From Cloeon dipterum (taxonomy: Eukaryota > Arthropoda > Insecta > Ephemeroptera > Baetidae): DNA of 64,000 nucleotides. This document shows positions 38,046-60,858 of the stretch, one piece after another. Each line of letters opens with the position of its first letter. Position 1 is the first letter of the stretch. The stretch is taken from positions 7,878,545 to 7,942,544 of the forward strand of contig NC_088790.1 of the NCBI RefSeq assembly GCF_949628265.1, read 5' to 3'. The notes under the pieces are model-generated. The model saw only the letters and a program-made list of their open reading frames with translations, made no database searches and was not told the origin of the DNA. The position numbers and the translations under genes are program-made.

Positions 38046-39682
38046 TTAACCAGCGATCTTGCGACAGATTTCGTTGGTGAACTCTGAGCACTTGGCCGAT
38101 CCTCCAAGATCTCCTGTTCTGAACTTGCTCTCCTTGATGGTTTCAAAGCAAGCCTTCTGGATCTTCTCAGCGTGCGAGTTAAGGCCCATGTACTGCAGCA
38201 TCATCACGGCTGAGAGCAGCAGCGCGGTCGGGTTGGCCAAGTCCTTGCCAGCAATGTCAGGAGCGGTGCCGTGAACCTTAACACGTTAAAATCAATTAAT
38301 GGAATTTTCTTAATGGTCTCTTATCATCTTATTATTTCTGACAAAATTCAAGGGTTGGGAGAATTTATCAAGAGGACTTACAGATTCAAATAGAGCGCCG
38401 TTCAGGCCAATGTTTCCGCTGGGGGTGAGGCCGAGACCTCCGACAAGTCCGGCGCACATGTCAGACAGAATGTCACCGTACAAGTTGGGCATCACAAGAA
38501 CGTCGTATTGTCTGGGGTCCTGGACCATGCTGAGGCACACGGTGTCAAGGTACTTTTCCTCAAACTTCACGTCAGGGTACTTTTCTGCAACCTCGCGGCA
38601 ACAGTGCAGGAAGAGGCCGTCGGACATTCGCCTGAGAAAAAATTAAATTGAAGGTCACGACGCCCTTGAGAATAAATTGCACTTACATGATGTTGGCTTT
38701 GTGAACTGCAGTCACTTTAGATCTGTTATTTTCTTTGGTGTACTGGAAAGCGAATTCAGCTACTCGGCGGGAAGCGTCTTCAGTGATGAGCTTAATACTC
38801 TGTACAACTCCATCAACAATTTCGTGCTCGATGCCAGAGTATTCGCCCTCAGTGTTTTCTCGGATGGTGATGACGTCAACATCGTCGTACAAGGTTTTGT
38901 AGCCTTCCAGAGATCGGCATGGCCTCACATTCGCGTACAAATTGAACTCCCTTTAAAATGTGGCGAGTTAGAATGGTTCATGAAATTTGTTTGCTATTTT
39001 ACTTTCTGAGGGCCAGGTTGAGGGATCGGTGACCCTTTCCCACGGGGGTCATCAACGGGCCCTTAAGTCCAACCTTATTTTTGTTAACAGAGTCGATGGC
39101 GGCTTGTGGAATTCCAAACATACCGTCAGGGCCTCGGACAGGTGTCACGTCGACCGACTCCCACTGGAGGGGCACCTAATACAAAAATATGGTGTTAATA
39201 ATATTTTTAGATTACTTTGTCTGAAAATTTTTTAATATTTTTGAATTTTATGCAGATGTGCGTCACAATTTACCTCAGCTGCTGCGAAAATCTTCTGCAC
39301 TGCGGCAGAAATTTCAGGTCCAATGCCATCACCAGGAATAAGGGTTACAGTCCGCACTTCGCTGCTGTAGCGACGGGCGAGCGGCACAGCCGTGGAGAAC
39401 TTAAATCAATTTAGCACATCTGATTATGTTATTCTATAGTGATAATATAAAAAGTAATTTGGTAACCTATATAATGGTTTGCGAATTATTTTGTTTTTTG
39501 CCAACGGAAACAAAGTCTTGAAAGAAAAGGTAATGCTAAGGATTCGGAAGGCAACGCTTTTGAATAACTTTGATTCGAATCTTAGACGATCTTATGGGCT
39601 TGACATTTAACGATATTGCATACGAAAATTCGGGAAAATTCCTGAAAAAACTCACCGCTTTGCGGACCAATTGTGCAGCCAT
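38046..39682 (-). CDS. Idh3a: NAD-dependent isocitrate dehydrogenase, catalytic alpha subunit
   Basis: Mitochondrial TCA-cycle enzyme: oxidative decarboxylation of isocitrate to 2-oxoglutarate, as part of an alpha/beta/gamma complex. Exons 39656-39682, 39274-39399, 39003-39175, 38687-38950, 38382-38631 and 38046-38276 give 356 aa. A short basic, Arg/Ser-containing N-terminus ([22 protein letters not shown]) looks like a mitochondrial presequence. Conserved blocks are [39 protein letters not shown], the isocitrate/isopropylmalate dehydrogenase signature ([19 protein letters not shown]) and [12 protein letters not shown]. The C-terminus [19 protein letters not shown] matches IDH3A rather than the beta or gamma subunits. 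It faces BLOC1S2 across 273 nt. Confidence 0.96.
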
Positions 39683-41375: not shown

Positions 41376-44300
41376 TTAGGCATGAGATTCGTCTTTGGAG
41401 TCAGTCAAATGTCCTACGCCATCTCCAGGGTCACTCTGCCCCTCAGGAGACCTGAAATACCATTAAAAGCCAACAAATCAAAATCAGTCAAGATTTTGAA
41501 CGTCAATTTTATTTATAGTGAGGTGAAAGTAAAAATTCTAGGTGATTTTTTAATTAATTACAAGATGGTATCTTAAAATGAAAAAAAAAAAATAAATTCT
41601 TACAGTTGGGAAACCTTGGCACGTAACCATAGAACCATCACCTCATTTACTAAGGGGTCCTTGGAGAAAGGCTTAATTAATGTCTGATATATTTTTTACA
41701 TCTTAAATCATCGTCTGGGGTGTGAGAAATCAACATCTGGTACCACCATATTTGTCATTCAGTTACTATGAAAAAATGAAGATTGCTAAGGCGATACGAA
41801 TCGCAGAGAAATTCAAGCAAACAATTTTTGAAGCCCCAAACAATGATTTAAAACGGGAATATCACCACACTAATTCTAAATATATTTTGGTTATTTGAAC
41901 ATACCTGCAGGCAAAATCTAGAAATTCGTGTGATTCACCGACCGAGTCGAGCAGTGACTCGATGGAGCCACTCGACTCTGAGCCGAGGTCCTCGGAGTCG
42001 CCAGCCATGGCGGCCTGCAGGTCCTCGATGCGCAGCAGCGCCAGCCTGAGGTCGGCTCTGGCCTGCGCCGCCTCTGCCTCGACTGTTTCCACCCGCAGCT
42101 CGATCTCCTTGCGTTTCCTGATGGCCTCTGCCTCCTTGGCCGCGACGCTGGCCTCGCGTTCACGTGCCTCGCGCAGCAGCCGGGCTGAGCGGCGGGCGGC
42201 GTCGTTGGCCGTCGCCTCGCGCAGCCTGGCCGCCTCGGCCTCCACGGCCATCTTGTCCGCCTGCTCGCGGAAGCGGCCGCTCTGCGTCTCGGCCCGCGCC
42301 CGCGTGGTCGCCTCCAGCTCCAGCCGCGACTCTAGCTCGCGGATCTTGGTCTCGAGGCGGCGCGCCGTCAGCCCGGTGGTCGTGTCGCCCTCAGCCGCCT
42401 CCAGACGCGCCGACATTTCAGCCACCTGCTCTCGCAGTGAGTTCCGCTCCGCCTCCAAGGTTGCCGCTGTGACTGCAAGCTCCGTTGTTGCCGCCTGGAC
42501 ACAAAAAACAAGTTCAATTGTGAGTTTTTCAGTCGTTATTTAATTTCTCATGAAATATTGAAACTAGCTTTCTTCAACCACACTGCCAAATCACAAAAAA
42601 ATTAACACGAGTTATTAAAATTAATTTTCAAGTTTCCGGCATTTTAAAATTACTCTGGATTTGATTTCTTTAGGAGATACATTCTACTTCTCAACTATAC
42701 GATCTCTGAGCTTATCAGAGTAACAGAATTTGCCAGTGTTCTAAAAGGTTAAAAAAACCTTTGAATTAAATTAGGGCTACATGTTAAAAAAACTATATAT
42801 TAATAGATAAGCAAGTTTCATTTTGTGAGCAGAAATTTTTTTACGATTAAGTTGTGGTTGCTATGTTAAGTGTCATTTCATTTTATTATACTATTGAAAT
42901 TAGTGTATATTGAACCATTAATTTAAAATGTTTTCAAACCCTTATTCCTGCGATAGATATTAGCAAAAGTGACAAACCTGTTCGACGCTGATTTGAGCAA
43001 CAGCAGCCTTGTATTTCTTCATGACTTCGGCAAGCTCCTCCTCATTCTCCTCGAGCTGGCCCGCAACCTCTGTTCTGGCTCTGACTGCGGCGGCGGCGCG
43101 GTCTTCGGCCACCGCGCGGCCTCTGCGCTCCTCCTCGAGAACCGCCTGCAGCTCCCTGGCCTCCGCCTCGGCCGTCTGGCGGGCCTTCATGGCCACCGCC
43201 CTGGCCGCCTCGGCGTCCTCCAGCTGGTGCCTCAACGCCCGCAGCTGTCCGCGGCCACCCGTCTCGTCGCGCTGCCTCTCCAGCAGTCCGTGCGCGTCTC
43301 GCAGCAGGGCCTTGGCGTGGCGCAGCTCGCGACGCAGTCTCTGGATCGTCTGCTCATCTTCAGGGGCGCGGCCCCTCGCAACCTCTGCCGCCTCGGCCAA
43401 CCGCCTCTCCAGGTCGTGCTTTTCACGTAGCAGACGCGTTCTCTCCTCGTGCTCCGTCTCTAGCTGACTCTCCAGAGCTGCAGTAATTATTTGATTAGAT
43501 TTATAAAAAAATTACATGTAAAATCTAAGAGAATACTTAAATTAAAAACAAGGATTTTTAAAATCTAATTGAAAAATTTACTGGTCAGTTGTCTCTTGTA
43601 CAAATCGACTCGAAAAATCCGTTCATGCTCAGTTTATTTTAGAACTTCTGCTCAGCACTTCCCGGAGGCTATGAGCTCACCGAGTCCCAAAAACACCGCC
43701 AAGCGAATAATATGGGGCCGCAGAGGAGCTCGCGCCCAATTTGGCCATCTTTACGCCTCCTCGCAACGAGGTATTTTATTGAAGCGCCTGACATTCGTCC
43801 ATAAAGCCACTGGAAAGGTGCGAAAAACTAGCAAGTTGCGAGTCAGCACCGATGCGCCTACCATCTAAAAGAGCATTTCGAGTCGCTAAATTAACCTCCT
43901 GCTACCATCTTTGACACTGAGCAGCCACCCCATTTTCTTTACACTGCTAAGAATGCCTTAACAATGCGAGCCAACGGGTTAAGAGTTAAATTAAAACGTT
44001 AGAGGTACACCACATCATACATTATCACAAAATTTTAAATAAAATTAATTAAAAGAGCACTCTTTCGAAAGGATTTTGTTCAAACACAACGAATGTAATG
44101 TTATTCACACGCAAAAATATCTGATATGGATGCTTCACAGGATTTACGTTAGCGGGTGCTTAAATACGACATTACGATTAATAATCTGAGGGGAACATTA
44201 ATGGTTAATGTATGTTAATTGTGCGTTATGCTCACTCATCTTCGATTATGCCTTATGGTATTGCGATCTGGGGCGCAAATGATGAAGCGTTGCAATCAGT

Positions 44301-47300
44301 GTTTGTCGCTCAGAAGCGTCTAATTTGGGCCTTGGCAGGCGAGAGATATTGGAAAGGGTTGACCCCTTAATGCTCTATGCGACCCCTATTTTAACGGTAT
44401 AATTTGCTTCTAGTTATCTTGAGAAATTTTTCAGTGCGCTAAAAGATTTCTCCTCAAGATATTCTACGATGCTAATGAATATTCATATTCAAACTTTATT
44501 TATTTTATGGCATAGTCACACATGATGTAATTCTTCACCAAAATGCAAGCTATCAATTTATGAATACACACACAATACAAGATTATATAATAATAATTTA
44601 AGATGTTTCTAAGGCAATTTTATATTTTCTTGTGGAAATTGTATTATATCGGGCGTAAATTACACCTATATGTAATACCATGTCATGAGACAGTTAAGTT
44701 TTTCTATTTTAATGATAGATTCATATATTTTCTTAAAAGAATTATTTTAAGTGCTTATTTAATTAATCTCGGTCAAAGTTTTAAAGATAATTTGGTCTAG
44801 TCTTTCCTTTTTTCAGAGGCTCAATGTGGATAAATATTAAAATGTTAAAACAGTTTTAAATGTGAACTTTGAACTTGTTAAGTAAGAATAGGGAAATTTA
44901 AATATTGATATTTAGTATTTATCAATGCAAAATAAAGATGGAAATGTGAATCCACCAACTCAATATTAAAATAATAGTCGGGCGATTTTTATATTAATAT
45001 ATTAAAGGAAATATGATAATCATTATATATTTGACTTTACCTCAAATGGTAGATTTCGATCAAATTTGCTTTACACCCACATCAAAACTTTTCATTCCCC
45101 TGTGCCACATATTTAGATTTTTACAGTTAATCCTCCAGCTTTTGCATAAGCAAGAATGACGAGCCATTAGAAAAACGCTCAACGTATTCCATTAAAACCC
45201 TCCATTAGCATACAATAATAACTGGCATACTTTCTTCAACTGGACAGGGGCTTTTTTGGCCCCCAAATGTTCATGACCACAAAATTAACAGAAAAAAAAT
45301 GTTACCAGATATCAAACTCCAGAACTTCTTGGCGGAAAAGCAAGGGACAAAATTTAGACCGTCATTATGCTCACCGCGGACCTTCTTCTGAGCGTTTCCG
45401 CGGATTTCCTCGAGTTCGTCGTCGCGTTGGCTGTACTCGCGCTTGGACTCCTTGCGCTGCTGCTCAAGGCTCATCTCGAGCCGCACCTTGGCCGCCTCAA
45501 GCAAGCCCACCTGACCGGCCAGCTCGTCCAGCTCCTCTTCCTGCTCCTTGACGCGTCGCTCGAGCGTGTGCTTGGCCTTTCGGAGGGTGGCCACCTCCTC
45601 CTCGGCCACCCCGCCGAACGCCAGTTCTTCGAGCTCGCGCCCCAGAGAGGCCACTTTCTCGTCTCGCATCTCCAGCTCCAGCCGGCACGCCTGAAAGCGA
45701 TCAATCGTCTGGTCAACCAAAACATAGCCACAAGCAAGGCAGCCAACCTCGGAGACTTCAACGCTCAGGAGGCGCCGCGCCACGGTACGGGCGATAACGT
45801 TTGTTTGAGTAACTTAGTTGTGAGGATAGAGATTCGAAATTCTCGGAATTGTCGTTTAGGAGGCGAAAAAAGTATCGGGTATCGATAAGCCGGCGCGGAA
45901 ACGTTAGTCCCCCTTCAGCGTGCGCGCGGGAGAAATACCGCGGCGTGCACCCAGGTGGGGCACGCAGCAGGTGAATGAATCGCGTGTATTGCACTCTTGA
46001 GCTCGCTGCCGCCGCTGTTACTGTTCTTTGGGAATTGTGATTAGCTCGGCAGTAATTATGAATGTTAACGGCGGATTTCGGCAGCAAGCAGGAGAGTGCA
46101 CTCTCCCGATCAGCCGTACCGCGCGCGTTTCGGTAATTAATCAGGAAGGATGCAGATGGAATCAACAACTATGGGAGTTTATGATTGATCGAAACGCAAA
46201 AAAAAGGAACGGAAATGGTGCTTACGGCCAGGTTCTGCTCGGCAGCTGTTTTTTCGGCCGCCATGAGGTCTCTCTCCCGCAGAGCTTTTTCCTTGCCGGA
46301 CTTTTCAAGCCGCAGCGATTCCTGTAGTTGGTGCATTTCACTATCAAACCTGCGATAAGATTTGAAGGTGTCCATCAATATTTGTACACAAGAAAACAGC
46401 AGTGTTAGAAAATACGAATACAAATTAGTGGATTTTTAAAGCTACACACCGCAAAATGGAATTAAATAGATTGTGAAAATGAATTGTTCGTTATCAGGCA
46501 AAATTTATTTTTCCTGTTTCAAAAATAGCTATGAAAAATTGTATTAGTTATCATTTTTTTAACATAGGGATATTTAGTAGAGGTCTCAATGGGGCGGCAA
46601 TCTTTGATTATTTAGTTTAGTTATTTAAATAGGAGTTGCTTCTCTAATAAACTAGAAAAATATCACATTATATCTTATTTTAAGAAGCCGAAAGAATAAA
46701 AAACCGTGCAAACTAAGCTTGATTTACAACTAAGATATAAAGGATGTGTTGAGAAAAAAATGTAAAATTAACTAAATAACAGTAGATATTATATCAGTCT
46801 CTGTAAAGACTTAGCAAAATAAAAATCCGGTTTGCCAAAATCTATGGATTTTTTTTATTTATGTGTATTTTGTCGATTCAATATAAATTCTTTGAAATGA
46901 AACTAAAACAATTCGTACACTGTTAAAATAAAAATAAATCATTAAATAAAAATATTGTTTCACTCTTACTTCTTCTGCCTTTTCTCGAGGATGGCGTTCC
47001 TGGCACTCTGCTCCTCAAGCATCAGCCTGGTGTCGTTGTGCTCGCCGGTGACGCGCTGCGCCTTCCTCTTCATCTGGGCGACGACCTGGCGCTGCTCCTC
47101 GACCTCTTCGAGTGCGTCTGCCACCCTTTTCTCGGTAGCCTTCCGAAGGGCCATCAATTGGTCCTCGTTCGCCTCCTGTTGCTGCTGCAGCTGTCGGCGG
47201 AGTGCGGCCGCCTCCTTCACGGCCCTGTCGAGCCGCTGCTTCAGGTGCTCGTAGCCGGCATCGTCGTCGTCGCCCGACGTGTGGGAGGAGTCGTCCGTGG

Positions 47301-50300
47301 CACGGCACATCAGGATTTCCATCTCCAGCCGCTGGCTCGCCTCTCGTAACGAGCTCTGTTTTTCCTGTGGAACGACCATCAAAATCGGCTCTTTCTCTCT
47401 CGATATGAGCTGTTTAAAAATTAGAGCTATTCAAATTTGATGAAAAATTATAACAATTTCAAAAATCTCAAAAGGGTTTATGAATTAAGTTTTTTAATAG
47501 ACACATGTCCATGAGACACGCTTGTCACTGTACATTAGTAATAAACATACATATCACACAAACGCGAGTGAGGAATTTGTTTGCAAAAACTGTGATAAAT
47601 GAAATAGCTTAAAATATTAAAAATCAAACTTTCTCAAGCCACGAAACTAAATTTTGACTTTTATTGTTTCTAAATTTTACAAATAATATTTAAGGACTCC
47701 CATATTCTTTTGTATTTTAGCGAGCCGAAACTTTTTCTAACTTCTCCTCTTTCTAAAGAGTTCTTACATAATAAGATAATTAAGGATATGTGCAAAAATT
47801 TATCTCCTTTGCACTATGCAACCTGCTCGTTGTTGCGCAACGGCAAGTTGCATAATACATTCTTTCGGAAAAATCAAACAGAAGATGAGAAATTTATTGT
47901 AGCTCAAGCCAAAGGCTCGTTTACTTTACTGAAAACGTAGCAATAATTCACGAAGCATAGCTGGCCGACGATAACCAAGAGCTCGAGTGACGCACGAGGC
48001 GTGCTGGCTCACTTGGAGAAAAGATAACTATGCAACAATAGCAGTCCGAAAATACACACGTCAAAATCGCTCGGCCGACAACGCTTCGTGAATGATAAAA
48101 TAAATAAATGGGGGGCAGAGGCAAACAAATAAATACCTGTGCATTTTGGAGCTCGTGCTGGAGGCGTGACCTCTCGACGGACTCGGTTTTCAGGCGCTCG
48201 GCGGCCAAGTGGGACGCGCTCTGCTCCTCTGCCAGGGCGACGGTCAGCTCGTTCATCTGCGCACGACATTTAGGACGCGTCAAGGCGGCTGTCCTGGCGA
48301 GGAACTGGCCGACCTTGGTGGTCAGGTAGGCCGACGGCGTGCTGGGCTGCTTGTGGGCCGCCGACGGCCGCACCGAATGGGCCAGGCGACGCGGCGGCCC
48401 ATGCACGGGGAAGCGCAGCTCAGCCGAGAACACGACCGGGTCCATCATGGAGAATAGGCTGGACGGCGGCCAAGCTCTCGACAACCCAGCACGCCCGTCG
48501 CCCACGCCACCCGATGACGCGTTTCGCGTGTGCCGAGAGGGTTACGCGAATTTGATAGCCACGCATGGTGGCCCAGGTCAAGATTCGGTAGTTTTCTTTT
48601 TTAATTTGGCGGTCTTCTCAAGTTTATTATTTTGTTTATTTTCGCCTCGGCTCGAGAATAAGTGGGCTGCGAGGGCTACGAACTTCAGAATTAATGGAAC
48701 ATTAATGGCGGGAGGAGAAAGGACACTTTCTGCTCGTCTCTCGTCCAATCTATTAATAAACAATGCGAACCACCACCGCGGCTTTTCGCTTTAATGTTGA
48801 CAAGTGGGGAGAGAAAGGATTATATATCAGCGCGCTTCTTGAAAAATGAACACCGCGGCTGTTATATAAATAATAGCTGCTTTCTGCTTGACTACGCGCG
48901 TAAAATGCTTCGCTTTTAATTTTGATGATTTGCTTCGTTTGCTACAAAGCCATTAACATTTAAAAAATACGATCGCAAAAATATTTTGCTCGCAATATTT
49001 TTCCATTTAGAGTCTAATTAAAACTCGTGATTTGCAAAGTATGAAAGAGATATAAAAAGCAAATAATTTCACTCACCCTCGCTTCAAGTCTTTCATTGTG
49101 CTGTTTGAGCCTTAGTTTCTCAGCCTCCGATTTATCCAAACGCATCTTCAAGCCTTCTAGCTCTTCGGTCTGCTTGCGCAACTCTTCTTCCGCTCTGTGT
49201 ACATTCAGGAGCGGAGCTACGCGCACCAGTAGGCGCCACCAGGGCCAATCCCTCACCTTCAGGAAACGCCTGACATTTCTCTGCACACACCTAACAGCCA
49301 CCTCTTGCACCTGCGCCACAAAATATTGATGATTACTATTACACGTTATAATGATTGCTTTAATTTGAAATAGTGGCGATTCCTTAAGCCATAAAATAAA
49401 AAAATGACGGGATTTTTAACTCATGAACAAATATTTATGAAATAAAAAATAGCACTATACCTTTCGCTTTTCAAAGCGTCTCCTGGCCAAGTAGCCCTTG
49501 CAGCGCGCCTGAAGTCTAGTAACATGGTCCTGGAGTTTTTCGTCTCGTTGCGCCTCCAGTTGTCCAAGCACCCCAGAGCGGAAGAACACCTGAGAGAACA
49601 TGCGGAGGCTTAGACTAAATAATTAAGTTAAGTTAGCCGTTAAAAATTATTTTTAATTGTTTTAAAATAATCTGATTTACTGATGCTTGTTTAATTAAGC
49701 GCGAACAAACTAGTGAATTATGATTTGGTTTATTAAAATTGCTTGGGCTAATCGTTTAATGTGGATTTGGTCGGGATTATTTGTCTGGTTAATTTGTGGT
49801 GCCTGCCTACACGTCCAATCACCTGCATCTCTGTGAGGTAGCGCGTATCACCCACTTTGCGACCAGTGTTGGCCACCACCAACCCGATTCCGCCCCCGTC
49901 AGCCCCGTCCACCGTCATTTTAGCAGCGGCCGCATCCACCAGTTCCGTTTTAGTAGCCGGCTGTCCGTCCACCGCGGAAGGCGTCGTTTCTGGTTCGATA
50001 TTTACTGGATTGCCGCTTTCCTCGGGACGTTCCTTCACCGCCTGAATGCTCTCCAGCCGCTCGGCCACCCTGTCGCACACCGACTCGGGCTTCTTGGCGT
50101 TCTCCGCTTCCTTTTGGCTGCTGCTGCTGGACTGAGCATCCTTGTCCAGTTTTTGGCCGAGCACCAGCTTTCCGCGAACGGTACTTCGATCGATACTCTC
50201 CGTTTGATTTGCTTCATTTGCTGCGGTTTTCGGCTCCACGCTGCTACCTTTTGAAACATTTTTCACCGGGCTTTTGGACGAGCGGCGCACCAGTCTGGTG

Positions 50301-53300
50301 ACTTCCGACGGCTTTTCCGCGCTTTTCCCTACCTCTTTATTGGCTAAAGTTAAGGGAGCGTCTTTTCGCGCCACGCAAGTGGCTTCGCTGCTGCTCACAT
50401 CACGCTTTGTTCCACTCGCTGCGGCCGTTTCTGTGCCAGCTTTGATATTAATTGAGCTCGAATTAGTTTTTTGCGCTTCGCATGCAGTGCTCGTATCTAC
50501 TTCTTTCTTCGCGGCACATAAATCAGGTCTAACAGCGTCGGCGACCGCAGAATTGGCGACTGTTGGTGGAAGTTGATCGCCTGTAGCAACGGCACCGCCG
50601 CTTTCTTTCGAGGTCTTTTCTGCTTGCACTTGACTTGCATTACTTTTCTCTTCCGCGATTTCCGAGTTTGGTCTCGAATCTGCTGCTGGCTCCGTTTTCG
50701 GTATTTCTACCGTCTTTGCTTTGCTTTCCTTCAGAGGCGAAGACTCTCTGGATTTCAATTTCGATTTTTCATCGCCTCTTTTGCTTTCCTGCCCGTTTTT
50801 CAGAGGCGAGGTTTCGCGTGTTTTCGACGGGCTCTTTTCCTTGACTCCGTTCGCCTCTGGCTTCTTTTCTTTGGTCTTTCGCGACCCGGTGCGGCTGACT
50901 TTGCTTTCGGATTTGCTCTTCAATGCACCCTGCTCGCTTTTTCGTTTTTCCTCAGCCTTTCGCAAAACTATTTTGTTAAAGACCTCACTGAGCTCATCCG
51001 ATTTGGGCCGCTGCTGCGGGTCGGAGGTGAAAAACGCGCCACTTTTCGGTCTCGCGGGCCTTAGTACACCGAACCCGATCTTGGGAGCCGGCTGCGTTGG
51101 CTGCTTGCCCGCGCTCGCTGCTAATTTCGTCGCGTCGTCCGTTTTGATTTTCTTATCGGCATTACTATTCACTTTGCCCGATTGAATTCCGTACGACGCG
51201 TCGGCATTTTTGCCACCGTCCCCTTGCGACTCGCACGTGTCCGTCTCCTGCTGGCCGTCCGCCTCCTTCTTGAGCGCCAGTTTGCTGATTTTTTCGCTTC
51301 TCTTCATGCTGCTCACCCTTTTCACTTTGATACAATTGCGAGTGTCTAATTTTACTGCCGCCTCAGACATACTGACGTCGTCGTCCTCGTTGTTCTCGGT
51401 CACCAAGAAGCTTTCAATTTTCTTCATCAAGTGGTCCTCCTCGTCGCCTTCATCAGCGGCACTGGGCACTTGATCGCCTTTCGGCTCGCCGTTACAATGC
51501 GCGGCGTCCACTCGATCAGAGTCCTCCACTTTGAGCGCCTCGATCGGCTTTGATATTTGTGACTCGATAGGTTTCTCCCCTTCTTTCGGCGCACCAAGCG
51601 GCTCGTCGATATTCGGCGCGTCCGTGGAATGCGGCCCCTTTTCCTCTTTTGGCAGTGCCTCGCTTTTAGTCTCTTCCGGCTCTCCTTTTGGCTGAACACA
51701 ATCTATTTCGCTTTGGCGATTTTCTGTTACTTCAATCACAGCTTCCTCTGGGTTACCTTCGACTTTTGCGTCTTGAACTACTATCTCAGCTATCTGATCC
51801 TCTTTTTCTTCAACTGTGGATGCAGTTTCTTCAATATGCTTTGGCCTTTCAAGTTCCTCCTCGGTACTCAACACTTCAGAAATATTTTCAAAGTCAGTAA
51901 CAGTATCAACGGTAGTATTATTTGGTATTAAATCCTCACTTTTCACTGCCTCCGCAGCTGGAGCTTCTAATCTGGGCGCTTGCACTACTTCTACTTGAGC
52001 TTCCGTGCTCGGCTCTTCCGCTACTGTTTCAATTCGTTCCGATGCAGCACCGCTTTTGATTTCAGTCGACGCGGAGATGATGCTTTCCGCGGCTTTTTCT
52101 TCTAATTTTACCGCCGCCACCGCGCAGCCAGAGTCCACTTTAATGTCGCTTTCAGTGGGAGCAAGTTGCACGACAATAGCATTATTTATATCAGACGCCG
52201 CGTTCTGCAACGTCACTTCTTCTACTTCTTCTTTCGCCTCTTGAACTTGTACCTGCGCCGATTCGATTGGTTTGGGTTTTTCCTCGGTTGGATTGTCGCC
52301 TTCAGCTGGCTGCGATTCTAAATTCTGAGTGGGCGCTTCGTTCAACGGACCGGTATTGGGCTCAGACGCCGCCTTCCCACAATTAACAGCCTCGCCGGCG
52401 TTGATTTCGGTTTCGGCAATCTCTTGTTTGCCTTCAGAATTCGACTTTTCAGCTGCAACAGTTATTGAACTCTGTTCTATTTTCGAGTCTGTTAAATTTT
52501 CGACTGCCTCTTGTGATGGTTTTGCGATGTCAGCTGAAGCGACTGTTTCTTTCGACGATTTTTCGGTGGTTGCTTGGCACTCACCTGTGTCTGGGGTTGG
52601 ATTTTCTTGATCAACTAATTTTTCTTCCGTTGTGGATTTTTGGGCTTCATGATGTGAACAATTTTCTACAGTTGCGGATCTTTGCAATTCAGGCTGTGAA
52701 ATGTCTTGTTTTTGCACTAGATTCGCAGCGTGTTGTTGAATAAGAGGTTCTGGCACCGATTTATTCGCTTCAAAAGAGTTTTTCACCAGCGATTTTTCAG
52801 CTTCAAGAAGTAGTTTTGCGTTCTCCACCAGCGCTCTCTCCTTTTTAGGAGATAAACTTATAGTTTTGGCAAGCAATCTCTCCTTCTCTTGCAGCTCTTT
52901 TGCTTTATCCACTGGCAAGTTAACTTTTTGTATTGCAGGTTTTGCAACTTTTACAGCCGATTTTGTTACTTCTGGAGATAACTTGGTTTCATCGGTCGGC
53001 GTTTTTAATGGTTCAGTTGTTATTGCGTACTCACTTTGCACCGCACGAACTTCGACAGGAGCTGAATCGTTACTGTCAACTGCGGTTTGCGTTTCACTTG
53101 GTGTCAAAGTCAGTGCAGCATGAAGCAGCGGACACTCGACACTTTCAGCATCTCCAGTGCTTGGCGACTTGCTAATGCTGGAGACTTCAACGGGAACAAC
53201 CTCCGTTTTCTTCTCCGCAGTGGGAACGGTCGCTGGCTTTTCGGCGGTGATCACCTCGCAACTAACGATCTCCGCTTTCACGCCGACGATCTCTTTGTTC

Positions 53301-56300
53301 AACTGGTTGTTTGTCAAAACAGTGACATCTTTGTTATCAACCTGCTTCGCCGCCTCCACCACGGCCGCCGGACTCGCAGCCTGTCCTTCTTTTGTGCTCG
53401 CGCTCTCCACTCGAACTACAGGTTTATCCTGTGCCGTTGCTTTTTCTCCCACTTGCACGCTGCTTACGCACTTGTCCAGCGGCGCGGCTGCTGCGCCCGG
53501 TGGGATGCAGCCTTGCCCTTGGCCCCGCCGGTCTGCCTCCGCGATTCCCTTATTCGCCCACTGCTGGCAGCTGCCTTCCGCCTTTCCTCGGAACTCGGCG
53601 ATCGCCAACTTGATTTCCGAGCTGATTTTCAGCAGCTTTTCCGTCTGGTCCTCGACCTGTTTGGCACCGACCGCCACCTCCCGTGGTGGCTCGACCGCGA
53701 CTGCAGGTTCGGCTTTTTCAATCAGTATCGACTCGCCGGCTCCCTTCACTTTGTCCACCTCTGAAATAATTTCACTTGGTGCGGCGTGAGACTTTTGCCT
53801 CTCCGCCTCCGTTGTTCTCGCCGGCTCGACTTCCAATTTTGGAAGCTGCTCGGGCGGTTTATGCAAAGCCACCGCCGCCGCACCGTTCGATTTAATTGGC
53901 TCGGCGGGCGGAGGCTTTGGAGGCGCGGGAGCCTGCCGCTTTTTGCCGTGACTGACTCTCGCCGCAGGCTCGCCCGGCTTACTCTTTGCGTCCGCCACTA
54001 CTACTACCGCACCACCACTCGTATCGGCATCGTCCGTCTTTGTCACCTGGTCTACAACGAGCACGCTCTTTCTGATGGCACCGCCGTCCTCCAGCAGTCT
54101 TTTGGGCGGCAGGGGCGGCGTTGCGGCCGGCACGCTTTTGTTGGACTCGGCGTCGTTGCAGTCGTCGGCGGCAGCAGGTCTTTGACTCCTGCGGCGCTCC
54201 TTCTCGTAGCGCGCCTCCACGATCTCACTTATCTTGCAGCTCACCCGCTGACCTTCGTCGGCGCCGCCCACTCTGGTGCTCTCGACGGCGAACACCTCGC
54301 GGATCAGCTCCTTGTTATCAAGGATGATCTGACCGGTGCGCTGCAGCTTGCGCACGTCCGAGTCATCCTCCTCGGGGGCGGCGGTGCCCCGCGCAGGGCC
54401 TAGCAGCGCGCTTAGCCGGCGGAACATGAGCAGGCAGCCTAGGTAGAAGAGCAGCACCGCGGCCAGCAGAGGAGCCGCCTCGTCTGCTGGCTGGCGCGGC
54501 CGGCTCATCACTGATGATCTCGCGACCCGGCACTCGCGCAGGGGGCGACACCATCAAGGCCGTCCACTTTTTCGTCGCCGCCGGCCACCATCAGATGGAC
54601 CAAGCACCATGTGTGCCCACTCGCAGGTCCTGCCGATCTTTGCCGCCGCGACACACTGAATCGTCGGCGCCGAGTGTGTATACTGTGTATGTGAGTGCTC
54701 CTCGCTCGCGGCGGCTTTGCGTAATTGCCGCCCGGGAGGGACGCATCACTCCGTGATTGGAATACGCGGTCACATGAGATGAATAAATAAAAAGGCACCC
54801 TACGCAACAACAACTCTGCTCGTGGCTGGCGTGCCGTGTTTGGCGTAAAGTCAACGAGATACGTGAGCGTGGCAACAACAATTGGAAAAATAAAAATGAG
54901 ATCATTTTACTCCTTCGAATTTATGAGGCTGTAAAACCGCACCGCTACTTGACACTTTAGATGCTACGCACCGCGTGTCTGAATACGCAGGCGTGGGTTC
55001 TTTCTTGTCTTGACGGGGGACAGTGTGCACAGATAAAACTAAAGGGGCCAAATAGTAGCACTGACCGCAGCTTACATAGCGTAAACATTAAAAAAGAAAG
55101 AAAATCGATACTCACTTTGGTAAGCCCGATTCGCCACTGACTTTCTTCCAGCCACTCAATCGCCGTCAAGGTTTCTTGGACGGCCTGCCTCTCTCCGTCG
55201 GTACCCATGGGGCTGGTGGGCCGTTCAACTAAACCCAGCAGACCAAACTGTCTGCGGAATTCAGCAAGAGGCACATTATCTGGGAAGCCCTGCTTGTGAA
55301 GTCGCGCAGCAGGCAGCAATTGACTTCCTCTCAGCTGGGCCCGCAGAAGAGCGACATCGATGTCTTCCTGATCAATGCGGTCCTTGGCCAGCAAGCAAAT
55401 TACGAAACGCGGCCTCGCTCTGCGAAGGGTTTCAATGAGCACGTCCTGAAAGCAAATCAAAAGAGGCGCGTTGTGACTTTTGACCTTTTATAGATTGGCA
55501 ATCAATTCAGAGGAAATTCCGAGAAATCAATTTAAATTAATCTTACCGATTGAGCAAGCATTGTTCGAACAGAATTTAGGCGACCAGGCCTCGTGCGGCG
55601 AACACTAAGCGTACCGTCCATCAAGCCTCCAGGCAACAAAGTTGAAGCTGGCCCAGCAGAACACTTTGCGAAAGAACTCATCTGTCTGATTGTTTCCCTG
55701 TAGATACAGAATAGATATTTGGTTAAAGTGGGGGAAAGTAAGACAGACAGAATTTGACACTGCTTGTGAAGCAAATTTCACTTTCATTTTCACCGGTTTG
55801 TAGCGCAAGTATCATTTTACACACACCTCAAGAGAAGAGCGGGATTAATGATTAGGATTGGATTACAGAGATGTGGCGCAGTAATTGTTTGCATATTCGT
55901 ACTTGTTCGAATCCTGCAGGAGTGTTCCCGCCACTCTGGTTAACTGACTCTCCTTGGCTTGGGTGAGCCATTCACTAGTGTCGTAAGCTACACTGCAGGT
56001 TCCATTCGAGTGGTTGATGGTGACCTCGTTGGTTCCTGTGCTCCAAGCCATTCTTCTCCCATCTAAAATTACAACAAATGCACTCATTAAGCATTTATTA
56101 ATAAAATCGGTAAAAACGTTAAGTTACATCTCTTTTGAGTTAAATATTATGGTAAAATTAAAAATAAAAACCTTTGTCAGTTTCTTTGGTCAATCGCTCA
56201 ATGACAGTAGCCTCACTGGTTGCTGCTTCTTCTAGCTGACCAAATACTGCAGTTTCTAGCAAACCTGCAACGCCTGCAGCTTCAGCTTCTTCATCAATGT

Positions 56301-59300
56301 CAACATTCACTTCCTCATGCTCATACAAATGCATTGGTCCCTGTATGGCAGTTTCGTGCCACAAAAGGTGCAACCTCTCAGCGAGGTAATTGTGACATAA
56401 ACCTGGCCAACCCTGCAGCGAGTTTGTTTGCAAGCCCGGGGCGTCAAGCAATAAAATCGTTGCTGAGGTATTGGTTTGACGGCTGAGGCCTCTATTTATT
56501 AAAGTTGCAACTGCATGAAGAACCTGCAAAAAGTGAAGATTGTGGCAGCAATCAACTTTAAGACAAAGAAAGAAAAACACACACAGGTTTAATATTTAAA
56601 TTTAAGAAAAAATTTAATGACTTTTCTCTCTGTGTTAAATTAATTCTGAACAGTTAGTACTGTTGACGAGGCCTGCGGGGCCAATACAGCTGCTGTACAG
56701 AACGAGAACGTGTAATAAATTTTTTCCTCATATAATTTTCACTATTAGCTAGCCATCCAGAGTTAAATTTCCTCGCTGAGTAGAGCCATCCAGTAATCAA
56801 TTGCTTATTTGAATTAATTTAATTTAGTAATAAATATTTTATGGCTTAAACTCTTCTAGAACTTAAGTTTTAAATATTGATTCTGATAACCAATTATTAT
56901 TAATCAAAGAGGTTTCCATGAAATTACACTATGGTCAATTCAATTTTAGTGTAGGACATTCAAAATTTAAAGGAAAAATATATGTTTCATGATTGTATTG
57001 ACAAAAGAAGGCTAAATTCTTAATTATTGATAATGTTTGGCTAGTTCTGTGCATGCTAATTTTTCAAGTCATAAATGCCTATTTGCTAAGTTATTTATTA
57101 ATATTTTTACCTGTCCATACAGTCCTGCAGAGGCTTGTGTGATAGGACCAACGCAGGGTGCGGCAAACAGGGTACGCTGCAAGTCCTCGAGACTGAGGCC
57201 TAGCAGCTGAGCGGCAATCTGGGCACTTTGAGGTCTGTGGAATCTGGTTGACGCTTCCCCAGCGGCGCCTAAGTGCAAAATTGCAGCCAGCACCGTCCAC
57301 AGCGCGTTTGACTCCTGCTCAGTCACTTCGAGTGCTTTGAGAGCCATGCACAATCGGTTGAAGTCCGCGGCCGCCCGAAGCCGATCGTCAGGTAAGTGTG
57401 TAGGATCGATAAGGATGTTTGGAAGAGCAATCAGGGCGTCGAGGCTGAGCTCCCGACGCAGTGGTCCCTCAGCACCAAGCAAAAGGCGATATAGCACCTG
57501 GAACGCCTGGTCACTTGCGCTTGACGCAGCGATACGAGTTTTTTCAGCAAGAAGAAGCTGTCAATCAATAAATTTTCAATCTTTAATAAATGTTACAAAC
57601 AATACAAGTATGGGCATCTTGAGAAATGAATGGATCGCAACAGATATTTGAAGGAGACATTTGATTACATATCGCAACCTCTGAGAGTGACAGTTAAAAT
57701 TTAATTTGCGAATCCAAAAAACAAGAAAGAGTGCTCACAAATGAAAATTACGAAAAAAATGGTGTTCTCTTCATTTAAAATTCTTGTAAGCTTTTGTTTT
57801 TCTGTTATAATCATATTGGAATGATTTAACAAATATACCAAATATTTTTGTAATATACCATAAGAAAATAGTTGTAAAAAGAATTAATGCAACATAATTA
57901 CTGTAATGCTTGAAATTTTAACTTCCTATTATGTAACAAGATAGCTTTTACCGTAACACAAAAGGGCTAGAAAATCAAATGAAATTTTACTACATGCAAC
58001 CAATACGTAGGAAGGAAGAAGCGGTTAAGCCTTAAAGCAATAATATTTTTTTGTCCAAAACTCTGATGATTTAAATAACCAAAGCAGGTCTTTACTTGTT
58101 TTTCTAAAGACCATAAAGATTGATTATAACAAAAAACTCACAATCTTTTTTTAAAAGAGTAAAGCAGACGAAGACCCGAGGCAACAAGTTAATGATGTGA
58201 ACAACACTATTATAGTTAATTATATTATATTAATATATTATAGTTAATAGATCATCAGGGACGGCAAGATCAATTTTATCTCCTTTAATTTTACATCTCA
58301 AGCTGAATTTTCCATAATATCAAGTTGATTAAATTACCTGAACATTGGCAGAAGCAACCTGTCCACTTTGGTCCACATCCAGACTGTACAAGCATGAGAC
58401 TTTGGTTGCGCTTGCTGTTGGTCCACTTTTCACAGTGCAAAAGGCCTCCACGATCGTGACTGCTGCGATCAGCTTGTCAGCAGTGAGCTGCCCCCCTGAC
58501 GCGGTCCACGCCAGAAAATGCAGAGCATGTCTCAAGCTAGTTGACTTTCCAGCACCTGATCGGCCCATAAAAACAAGAGCCTGGTCCCTTCTTGAAGCCA
58601 GAAGGGCTCTGTATGCAGCCTGCGCAGCACCATAGACGTGAGGAGGCCAATCTTGAAGACTTATGCCCCGGAAGTGGGAGGCCAGCTTGTCAGAGTAGGC
58701 TGCCAGCGGGCCTTGCGGGTTGACAATCAGGATTGCGGGGCCGGCCCTAGTGTGGTGCAGGTGAGCAGCCGCTCTCATTCGGATCACATGCAGGGCAGCA
58801 GCTTCGTTGAGAAACGGCAGGCTGCTCAGCTCTTCAGCCAAATCAAAGTCTGGAGAGTTTGCCTGGAATTCCGGGCAGAAATATTAATTTTTTTATAGAA
58901 ATAAACAGGATAATATAAATCACAAGGGACACATCTACAAAAACAATGATTGTTAGTAGGCTGGGCTGGTTTTAGTTCAAATTGGGCTTTAAAGTCTGGA
59001 GGATTTCAAGAACAATTTCTCACAGGCATGCACTCGTGGGGACTATAAAAAACAATGCACGCTGCTTTGTCTTACAATTAAAATCTTCCCATCACCCTTC
59101 CTAGAACGAAAGACCGGCATTTACGTAGGATTTTTTAGATCAATATTCAAAATTTTACCTTTTCAACATCATCCTCGTCAACCGTAGCTTCTTGTCCTGT
59201 TGCTTGTATTATAACTCTGACCGACGATGAATCGGGAGTAGTTGGAGGTAACCTGGTAACTTTTGTATAGCCATGTCTGTGAACGAGCCAGTCCCAGCTC

Positions 59301-60007
59301 GCTTCATTGCCTCGACTTGTCTGAATGTTTGAAATGTGAGAAATTTACGTGAAGCGAATTAAGTGATCTTACCTGAAGAATTCTTCGACTATTTTCTCTG
59401 TTGCTCAATTCGACCAACTCGGGCACTGGCTGCACCTACAATATTGATTTTTTTAAATTTTAATTATGAAGATGAGAAATTGAGATATAATTACCGTGAC
59501 AGTAACAGCATGGCCACTGCTTTTAATTAATTGTATGACTTCTTCTCTGCTCTTGTCATCCACCCTCTCTGCATTGACTGCCATCAGTCGGTCTCCAGGG
59601 AGGAGCCCGCTTTCGTGACCCCTCGCACCAGGCTCAGCTAAAATCACTGTTCGGCGTCCGGCGGACACGGCCCTCCTCAGAGAAAAACCAAAGTCTCCAG
59701 ACGGCTGTCTGCGGATGACCAAGTTCCTAGGGGCAGGCAGAACTGGCGGAATTGCTTCTGGTAAAGGCCAGTCCGCCTTGGAGGGTGGCGGCGGAGGCGG
59801 GCCGCGAGGGCCTCCTCTGCGTTTCGGTGGCTTCGGTGGAGGTGGCTGATTGAGAGCTGCCAAAAAGTCTGCGCTGTAGTCGGCCGTGATGCCCAGTTTG
59901 GGTCGGGCAGACTTGTTGGGTCGCATTTTAGCCCGCACCTCGTCCAGCCGAAGCAGCTCTTCCGGCGTGAGCCGCTTCTTTTTCTCCTTTTTCATAAAGT
60001 TGAACAT
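41376..60007 (-). CDS. Mhcl: Myosin XVIII heavy chain (full-length PDZ isoform)
   Basis: Unconventional myosin related to MYO18A / fly Mhcl, an actin-binding scaffold. Exons, in order: 59495-60007, 59373-59435, 59159-59320, 58338-58862, 57111-57557, 56172-56523, 55903-56062, 55547-55697, 55116-55445, 49461-49589, 49077-49310, 48137-48256, 46970-47364, 46226-46349, 45375-45690, 42978-43477, 41905-42494, 41376-41451; 1728 aa, all phases consistent. MFNFMKKEKKKR and the PDZ domain (residues about 97-172, DFGFSLRR loop) match MYO18A. The P-loop GRSGAGKS is intact at about 346. Switch I (SATKVSCLYSLD) and switch II (DAPGLQ, about 597) are degenerate, as is known for this class, so little ATPase is expected. 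An IQ segment (LQARCKGYLARRRF) lies near 925, then about 700 residues of coiled-coil tail. The intron between exons 9 and 10 is 5.5 kb and holds another long frame. Confidence 0.95.
43655..43790 (+). repeat. Copy B of the short dispersed repeat
   Basis: Colinear partner of 23783-23925 with the same three conserved blocks. Compared with copy A it lacks a short A-rich insert in the middle and has a different terminal hairpin (CCTCGCAACGAGG). A 99-codon open frame crosses it but is not conserved in copy A, so it is probably fortuitous. Confidence 0.5.
44226..44470 (+). mobile_element. LINE fragment (3' end of a reverse-transcriptase ORF)
   Basis: The plus-strand translation YAHSSSIMPYGIAIWG, followed by VFVAQKRLIWALAG, matches the end of the non-LTR reverse-transcriptase region (fhS..sYGiifWG...if.lQKraiR.iag). 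After a stop, LYATPILTV and SSYLEKFF match the following ILTvpsLYilE block in the same frame. At least two stops are present, so the copy is dead and heavily truncated. It is inserted antisense to myosin XVIII. The clade (Jockey/CR1-like) is not resolved. Confidence 0.65.
46350..46969. other. Myosin XVIII intron 13
   Basis: AT-rich intron of 620 nt. I see nothing else in it. Confidence 0.5.
47365..48136. other. Myosin XVIII intron 12
   Basis: AT-rich. A plus-strand 76-codon frame at 47710-47940 has a fairly natural composition but no recognised relative. It may be a decayed transposon piece or chance. Confidence 0.4.
48137..48448 (-). CDS. Mhcl: Short alternative first coding exon of myosin XVIII
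   Basis: Myosin exon 12 (48137-48256) is extended upstream by an open, in-frame, strongly GC3-biased stretch that begins with a double ATG at 48448 (MMDPVVFSAELRFPVHGPP). It adds 64 residues (Pro-, Arg- and Ser-rich, no domain recognised) before MNELTVALAEEQ. A transcript starting here would encode about 770 aa, essentially the coiled-coil tail. The codon bias continues to within about 20 nt of the exon 12 acceptor, and that acceptor has a poor pyrimidine tract, as expected if the sequence is also coding. A minus-strand TATATAA at 48820-48826 could be its TATA box. Confidence 0.6.
48449..49076. other. Myosin XVIII intron 11 with candidate internal promoter
   Basis: Holds the upstream region of the short alternative start, including the TATA-like element. 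No other feature is seen. Confidence 0.4.
48820..48826 (-). promoter_or_regulatory. TATA box for the short myosin XVIII start
   Basis: TATATAA on the minus strand, about 370 nt before the double ATG at 48448. It predicts transcription starting near 48790. This is a motif match only. Confidence 0.35.
49823..54508 (-). CDS. Giant same-strand ORF in the myosin XVIII intron; probable alternative first exon
   Basis: An ATG at 54508 opens about 1,560 uninterrupted codons; the frame would run to a stop at 49748. I recognise no domain. Residues about 13-36 are a strong membrane segment (LLAAVLLFYLGCLLMFRR). The rest is low-complexity, rich in Glu, Lys, Ala, Pro, Ser and Val, with basic SRE(S/T)SPLK repeats late in the protein. 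Near the end, TEMQ is followed by a phase-0 GT donor (gtgatt at 49822). The next acceptor, myosin exon 10 (VFFRSGVLGQLE), is also phase 0. Splicing would give about 2,389 aa: membrane anchor, disordered stalk, IQ and coiled-coil tail, without the motor. The alternative is an independent intronless nested gene ending at 49748; an AATAAA just after that stop (49729-49734) would suit it. Confidence 0.7.
54512..55115 (-). promoter_or_regulatory. Probable promoter and 5' UTR of the giant intronic ORF
   Basis: GC-rich stretch directly upstream of the giant frame, inside the myosin intron, with CpGs and an Inr-like TCAGT near 54660 on the minus strand. No TATA box is evident. Position and composition are the only support. 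Confidence 0.35.
57558..58337. other. Myosin XVIII intron 4
   Basis: A 780-nt AT-rich intron. A repeated ATAGTTAAT-type motif at about 58212-58250 is the only structure seen. Confidence 0.5.

Positions 60008-60792: not shown

Positions 60793-60858
<66 letters not shown>

Follow-up and report, generated by a model that had tools for sequence, protein, structure and literature searches.

A long frame in a myosin XVIII intron of the mayfly Cloeon dipterum as the predicted first exon of a motor-less, membrane-anchored isoform

Introduction

Products without a motor domain are already known from myosin genes. The muscle Mhc gene of Drosophila, for example, gives rise to the myosin rod protein (MRP), a rod lacking the motor that is made from an internal promoter with its own first exon. 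Here we analyze a 64,000-nucleotide stretch of the genome of the mayfly Cloeon dipterum (contig NC_088790.1, positions 7,878,545 to 7,942,544; hereafter the window, with positions counted from its first letter), in which a long open reading frame lies inside an intron of a gene that, by its domain order, is a class XVIII myosin. Predicted from DNA alone, this frame is probably an alternative first coding exon, which would give a motor-less, membrane-anchored isoform of the myosin from an internal promoter. With MRP the proposed isoform would share the internal promoter, the dedicated first exon and the motor-less rod; MRP differs in belonging to a class II muscle myosin and in having a short unique N-terminus without a membrane anchor. 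Kinectin and p180 consist of an N-terminal anchor followed by a long cytosolic rod, a likeness to the proposed isoform in layout only. Unlike the proposed isoform, these proteins carry no myosin tail, and their stalk is shorter.

Headless myosin X (Hdl-Myo10) of mouse brain is produced from a transcript that starts within the gene, at exon 20, and is localized at the plasma membrane (PMC6345916). The isoform proposed here would likewise be motor-less and start within its gene. Unlike it, however, Hdl-Myo10 belongs to another myosin class and binds the membrane through PH domains of the shared tail, with no transmembrane first exon (PMC6345916).

Myo18A alpha, beta and gamma, which belong to the same family as the mayfly gene by domain order, have alternative N-termini (PMC7900500, PMC11112018). 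In contrast to the proposed isoform, all three retain the motor, and a figure legend gives a motor to all known myosin-18A and -18B isoforms (PMC7900500). Vertebrate Myo18A alpha and beta co-assemble with nonmuscle myosin 2A into mixed bipolar filaments, and the beta form may regulate through heterodimerization (PMC11112018). The status of Myo18A as a membrane protein is disputed, in that a transmembrane helix within the motor was proposed for SP-R210/Myo18A and has been judged most unlikely (PMC11112018). For a Golgi role of Myo18A, an unknown splice variant has been suggested (PMC7900500). No headless myosin with a transmembrane first exon of its own was found among the matches listed from one library of open-access papers. 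The exon may already be present somewhere as an unremarked gene model.

Results

The long frame and its host gene

The frame lies on the minus strand and runs for 1,586 codons, from an ATG at 54508-54506 to a stop codon ending at 49748. It was found where an earlier sequence-only reading had placed it, on the same strand as the myosin and between its motor and neck exons. It occupies 4.76 kb of the 5.53-kb intron. In 300 dinucleotide-preserving shuffles, examined in three frames, the longest stop-free run was 326 codons and the mean was 152. First codon positions are 42% G and 9% T, a common coding pattern. A codon model trained on the exons of the host myosin (15 of 16 peptide-bounded pieces, 1,525 codons; the remaining piece was not found) gave the frame a mean of 14.2 bits per 24 codons, versus -14.3 in open intron windows. 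Within the C. dipterum genome (190 Mb, 10 contigs), the best candidates, all four of which were scored, contained one match to the frame.

Homology searches returned no relatives of the frame. With the frame searched as a whole, no Pfam family reached E <= 10, and three pieces of it gave no accepted family; the PDB sequences contained no match at E <= 10, and Rfam reported nothing at gathering scores. The viral and prokaryotic DNA collections also yielded no relatives (the viral one being searched with the whole frame and with the first 115 residues), a result that is uninformative about animals. A match of the first 115 residues to the cold-shock family CSD2 (E 0.056, 14 bits against a cut-off of 26.2) was set aside; the stretch is modelled as helix. 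Two further observations concern the frame as DNA. Its 5' part is faced on the plus strand (53087-54403) by antisense frames 225, 210 and 205 codons long, which probably reflect its codon bias. At 52620-52700 a 42-nt unit, whose length is a multiple of three, is repeated imperfectly (about 1.9 copies, 76% matches).

Assignment of the host gene to class XVIII is a judgement from domain order, as Pfam places a PDZ exon ahead of a myosin motor downstream on the same minus strand. The succession of PDZ, motor, neck and heptad-bearing tail agrees with that of Myo18A alpha, in which a coiled coil follows the neck (PMC7900500). The last motor exon ends in GLTK (ACC AAA/GTGAGT, the slash marking the splice boundary), with a phase-0 donor at 55115, from which an intron of 5,526 nt leads to the neck exon at 49589. 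There the boundary reads TCTCTCAG/GTGTTC, also in phase 0, and the exon opens with VFFRSGVLGQLE. Heptad contrast exceeded that of their own shuffles in four tail exon pieces (z of 1.7, 3.4, 1.9 and 2.5), and in a Pfam scan of three neck and tail pieces the myosin tail family did not appear at E <= 1. The usual P-loop consensus of myosins is GESGAGKT, and the motor exon at 58338-58856 carries GRSGAGKS, which fits a motor without ATP hydrolysis.

The predicted protein

A membrane-spanning segment at the start of the frame had been noted before, and the present analysis likewise predicts one: the 19-residue hydropathy mean reaches 2.35 at residues 11-29, the sole strongly hydrophobic stretch of the protein (the best value past residue 40 is 0.86). 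AlphaFold2, run without an alignment, modelled a helix at residues 11-35, with block pLDDT values of 86, 94 and 69. The modelled helices within residues 49-109 are given low weight because the pTM of the model is 0.28. Of the two flanks of the hydrophobic core, the later one carries R30, R31 and R40, and in the earlier one R3, R5, D9 and E10 balance to no net side-chain charge. Membrane orientation was predicted with the positive-inside rule, by which this distribution would place the stalk and the tail in the cytosol.

The remainder of the frame was fairly described as of low complexity, since A, E, K, S, V, P and T make up 64% of residues. The claim of a disordered stalk held in part: over residues 111-1480 the charge-hydropathy value is -0.027, which lies only marginally on the disordered side, and 9 of 15 blocks of 100 residues were negative. 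A heptad signal is present in residues 36-110 (z 2.1) and none was found in residues 116-1480 (z -1.3). Taken as a whole, the stalk is probably largely unstructured. A total length of about 2,389 aa for the spliced product, the figure of the sequence-only reading, is plausible.

Two short motifs were seen in the stalk. Near its start the translation contains PPLPPKR (54090-54125), which resembles an SH3 ligand pattern. The region 50801-51220 contains RPKSDELSEVFNKIVLRKAEEK, which is reminiscent of a WH2-like actin-binding motif, and Pfam gave no match for this piece.

Splicing to the neck exon

A phase-0 donor, CAG/GTGATT at 49822, was confirmed to fit the phase-0 acceptor of the neck exon as had been suggested, and the resulting join stays open through the neck exon. 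This donor ranked first among the 133 phase-0 GTs of the frame with either matrix used, and among the 229 GTs of any phase it ranked third with an approximate matrix and second with a matrix built from the gene itself. For the latter, 19 exon ends were probed, of which 1 was not found, 11 were used and 7 were omitted as uncertain; the other donor and acceptor matrices are approximations. The own-gene score of 4.86 falls within the range of the 11 gene donors (3.47-7.37, those being scored in-sample), and the best donor scores at the 7 omitted ends were at most 3.11, versus 4.61 for 49822, in an approximate matrix. Phase-0 donors of this strength are expected 0.016 times in the last 75 nt of the frame. 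Another donor of the same gene, CAG/GTAATT at 58337, is off consensus at the same place. The neck acceptor at 49589 is the best of 284 AG sites between 52550 and 49560, and a branch-like CTAAC is found at 49636-49632 within the proposed intron.

The codon signal changes in the same region. With the myosin-trained model, it climbs up to the donor, has its maximum nine codons past it and then drops, and the 24 codons past the donor score -7.6. Equally low scores were found in 2.3% of overlapping frame windows, in 1 of 65 non-overlapping frame windows and in none of the 63 windows from the myosin exons, on which the model was trained. Among 641 overlapping windows of open intron sequence, 67% score at or below this value. 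When a model trained on the frame was used, the post-donor codons fell below every pre-donor window, in a comparison that is mostly in-sample.

Signals at the 5' end

Upstream of the frame, a candidate core promoter was identified from an initiator (Inr) and a downstream promoter element (DPE), a pattern known from fly promoters. TCAKT with an RGWYV DPE at +28 has 4 matches on both strands of the 64 kb, and 2 of these lie within the 150 nt before the ATG, at 54657 and 54512. In the 630-nt upstream region these 2 matches compare with a mean of 0.028 per shuffle, and at least 2 occurred in 0.04% of 5,000 shuffles. The second match, on the minus strand, has its A+1 at 54512, four bases before the ATG. 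A start at 54657 is favored because it gives a leader of about 150 nt, whereas a start at 54512 would leave almost none. In the main ATG at 54508, position -3 is G and position +4 is A. A 27-codon upstream frame opens at the ATG at 54591, and its TGA shares one base with the main start codon (54508-54593), so that re-initiation could occur.

Table 1. Features of the locus and the basis on which each was placed (positions in the window).
Feature	Position	Strand	Basis
Candidate internal core promoter, Inr TCAGT (A+1 54657) and DPE GGACCT at +28 to +33	54625..54659	-	TCAKT and RGWYV match
Coding part of proposed alternative first exon, 1,562 codons	49823..54508	-	Open frame; shuffle maximum 326 codons
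Single transmembrane helix (predicted) at residues 11-35, with hydrophobic core at 11-29	54404..54478	-	Hydropathy 2.35; AlphaFold2 helix
Predicted helical segment past the anchor, residues 49-109	54182..54364	-	AlphaFold2 helices 49-64, 66-79, 82-109
Proposed 233-nt intron, donor to neck acceptor, both phase 0	49590..49822	-	Donor rank; open join
Frame past the donor, 24 codons plus stop (translated only from a nested gene or if the donor is skipped)	49748..49822	-	Codon score -7.6
AATAAA, possible polyadenylation signal of a nested gene	49729..49734	-	Starts 13 nt past stop
Region of PDZ and motor exons, lost from the proposed isoform	55116..60007	-	Pfam PDZ 7.3e-07; Myosin_head 7.7e-24, 9.4e-11, 9.3e-11
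PDZ exon	59492-60007	-	Pfam PDZ
Motor exons	58338-58856, 57111-57554, 55116-55445	-	Pfam Myosin_head in each of the three
Shared neck exon	49461..49589	-	IQ-like stretch by eye; best of 284 AG sites
Shared tail exons, region as a whole	41904..49310	-	Heptad-bearing tail

Elsewhere in the window, the dinucleotide AT is repeated about 32 times upstream of the PDZ exon (60793-60855), and minus-strand frames downstream of the myosin gene (38049-39405) resemble, by eye, an isocitrate dehydrogenase subunit.

Discussion

Weighing the explanations

The proposal that the frame is an alternative first exon of a headless myosin XVIII had come from the sequence-only reading, and it gained support here from the rank of the donor, the loss of the codon signal near it and the Inr and DPE pair upstream. 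It remains the probable explanation. Its main rival, which that reading had also named, is considered unlikely. Under this rival, the frame would be an intronless gene on the same strand, nested in the myosin and sharing only the intron with it, that codes for a single-pass membrane protein of 1,586 residues, ends at 49748 and is polyadenylated near 49.71 kb. Such a gene would explain why the frame is open through its stop codon and why that stop is followed by AATAAA and then GTTTGTT. The AATAAA was nonetheless rejected as decisive, because the hexamer turns up in 49% of shuffled versions of the 135 nt past the stop, a stretch of 24% GC (in 15% it falls within the first 40 nt). Likewise, in pooled intron sequence with 41% GC, a run of 25 open codons has a probability of 0.21. 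A nested gene would also have to place intron-like sequence in its last 24 codons and the best phase-0 donor of the frame in its last 75 nt, and the end of its message would be squeezed together with the neck acceptor into 158 nt. On balance, the spliced, headless product appears better supported than the nested gene. A compromise, in which one promoter serves both ends so that intronic polyadenylation near 49.71 kb gives a short anchor-stalk protein and splicing gives the anchored tail, would account for both sets of signals, yet the AATAAA does not exceed chance expectation and coding signal is missing from the codons past the donor; we consider it improbable.

The two other explanations are more remote still. 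If read as a very large exon internal to the full-length myosin, between motor and neck, the frame would be tolerable in phase because the motor donor and the neck acceptor are both phase 0, and the best in-phase acceptor in its first 1.5 kb, at 54046, scores -0.23, near the real acceptor at 48256 (0.35). The two other acceptors located, however, score 3.78 and 2.71 (of five probes, 46381 gave no AG and 55463 no true site, leaving three for the comparison), and entry at 54046 would drop the first 154 codons, including the membrane helix. This explanation is disfavored and very improbable. Least probable of all is a mobile-element remnant or a non-coding stretch open by chance. It would be consistent with the lack of any accepted domain match, but it is at odds with the single genomic match, with a length far beyond the shuffle maximum and with a codon use like that of the myosin exons.

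Several observations weigh against the headless isoform itself. The two myosin-18 reviews, in the parts cited, give motor-bearing isoforms only (PMC7900500, PMC11112018). In the frame, the strongest GT is a perfect donor in phase 1, CAG/GTGAGT at 52584, which outscores 49822, as does a donor at 53034 in one matrix only. Splicing from 52584 to the neck acceptor was rejected because the two sites differ in phase and the joined sequence runs into a stop after 24 codons. The AATAAA at 49734 lies just past the frame stop. The codon signal reaches its maximum nine codons too late for the donor, and in the frame-trained model the 25 codons that precede the donor score weakly as well (2.4 versus intron, -6.2 versus frame composition), so the codon boundary at the donor is not a sharp one. 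The Inr and DPE motif was chosen post hoc, the site at 54657 having been noticed by eye before the pattern was picked, and the counts are therefore not a clean test; upstream of the PDZ form the pair is absent, and only TCAGTC and a distant TATAAA are found there. Three upstream ATGs (54610, 54591 and 54554) follow the start at 54657, with C or T at -3 and G at +4. They could lower initiation at 54508, and the last of them opens a frame of 63 codons that extends across the main start, which is a real weakness; leaky scanning past these ATGs is plausible. Initiation at the in-frame ATG at 54427 would remove most of the anchor.

Proposed mechanism and significance

From the frame, the splice geometry and the signals found here we infer that an intronic promoter, with a candidate start near 54657, would begin an RNA with its own first exon. 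This exon would code for 1,562 residues, consisting of about 10 residues, a signal-anchor helix, a short helical stretch and the long stalk. Splicing from 49822 to 49589 would then keep the reading frame and append the neck and the predicted coiled-coil tail to anchor and stalk. The product would lack the PDZ domain and the motor, and the stalk and tail of the inserted protein would face the cytosol. The anchored tail would most likely pair with full-length myosin XVIII or enter nonmuscle myosin-2 filaments, as vertebrate Myo18A does, and could tie filaments to the membrane, by tethering them or by competing with the full-length protein. Docking or competition of this kind is suggested because Myo18A alpha and beta form filaments together with nonmuscle myosin 2A and the beta form may heterodimerize.

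A more far-reaching idea can be offered tentatively, and we hold it with less confidence than the exon itself. A second, motor-less start, through which the tail gains an anchor and a stalk about 1,500 residues long, might have made the product a dedicated integral-membrane receptor for myosin-18/nonmuscle myosin-2 filaments, so that one gene would encode both a filament component and its membrane dock. If the headless isoform is real, deletion of the motor exons may spare a large product of the gene, as can be compared with headless myosin X (PMC6345916). Additionally, a headless isoform with its own anchor would provide a clean answer to the dispute over Myo18A as a membrane protein, at least in this lineage.

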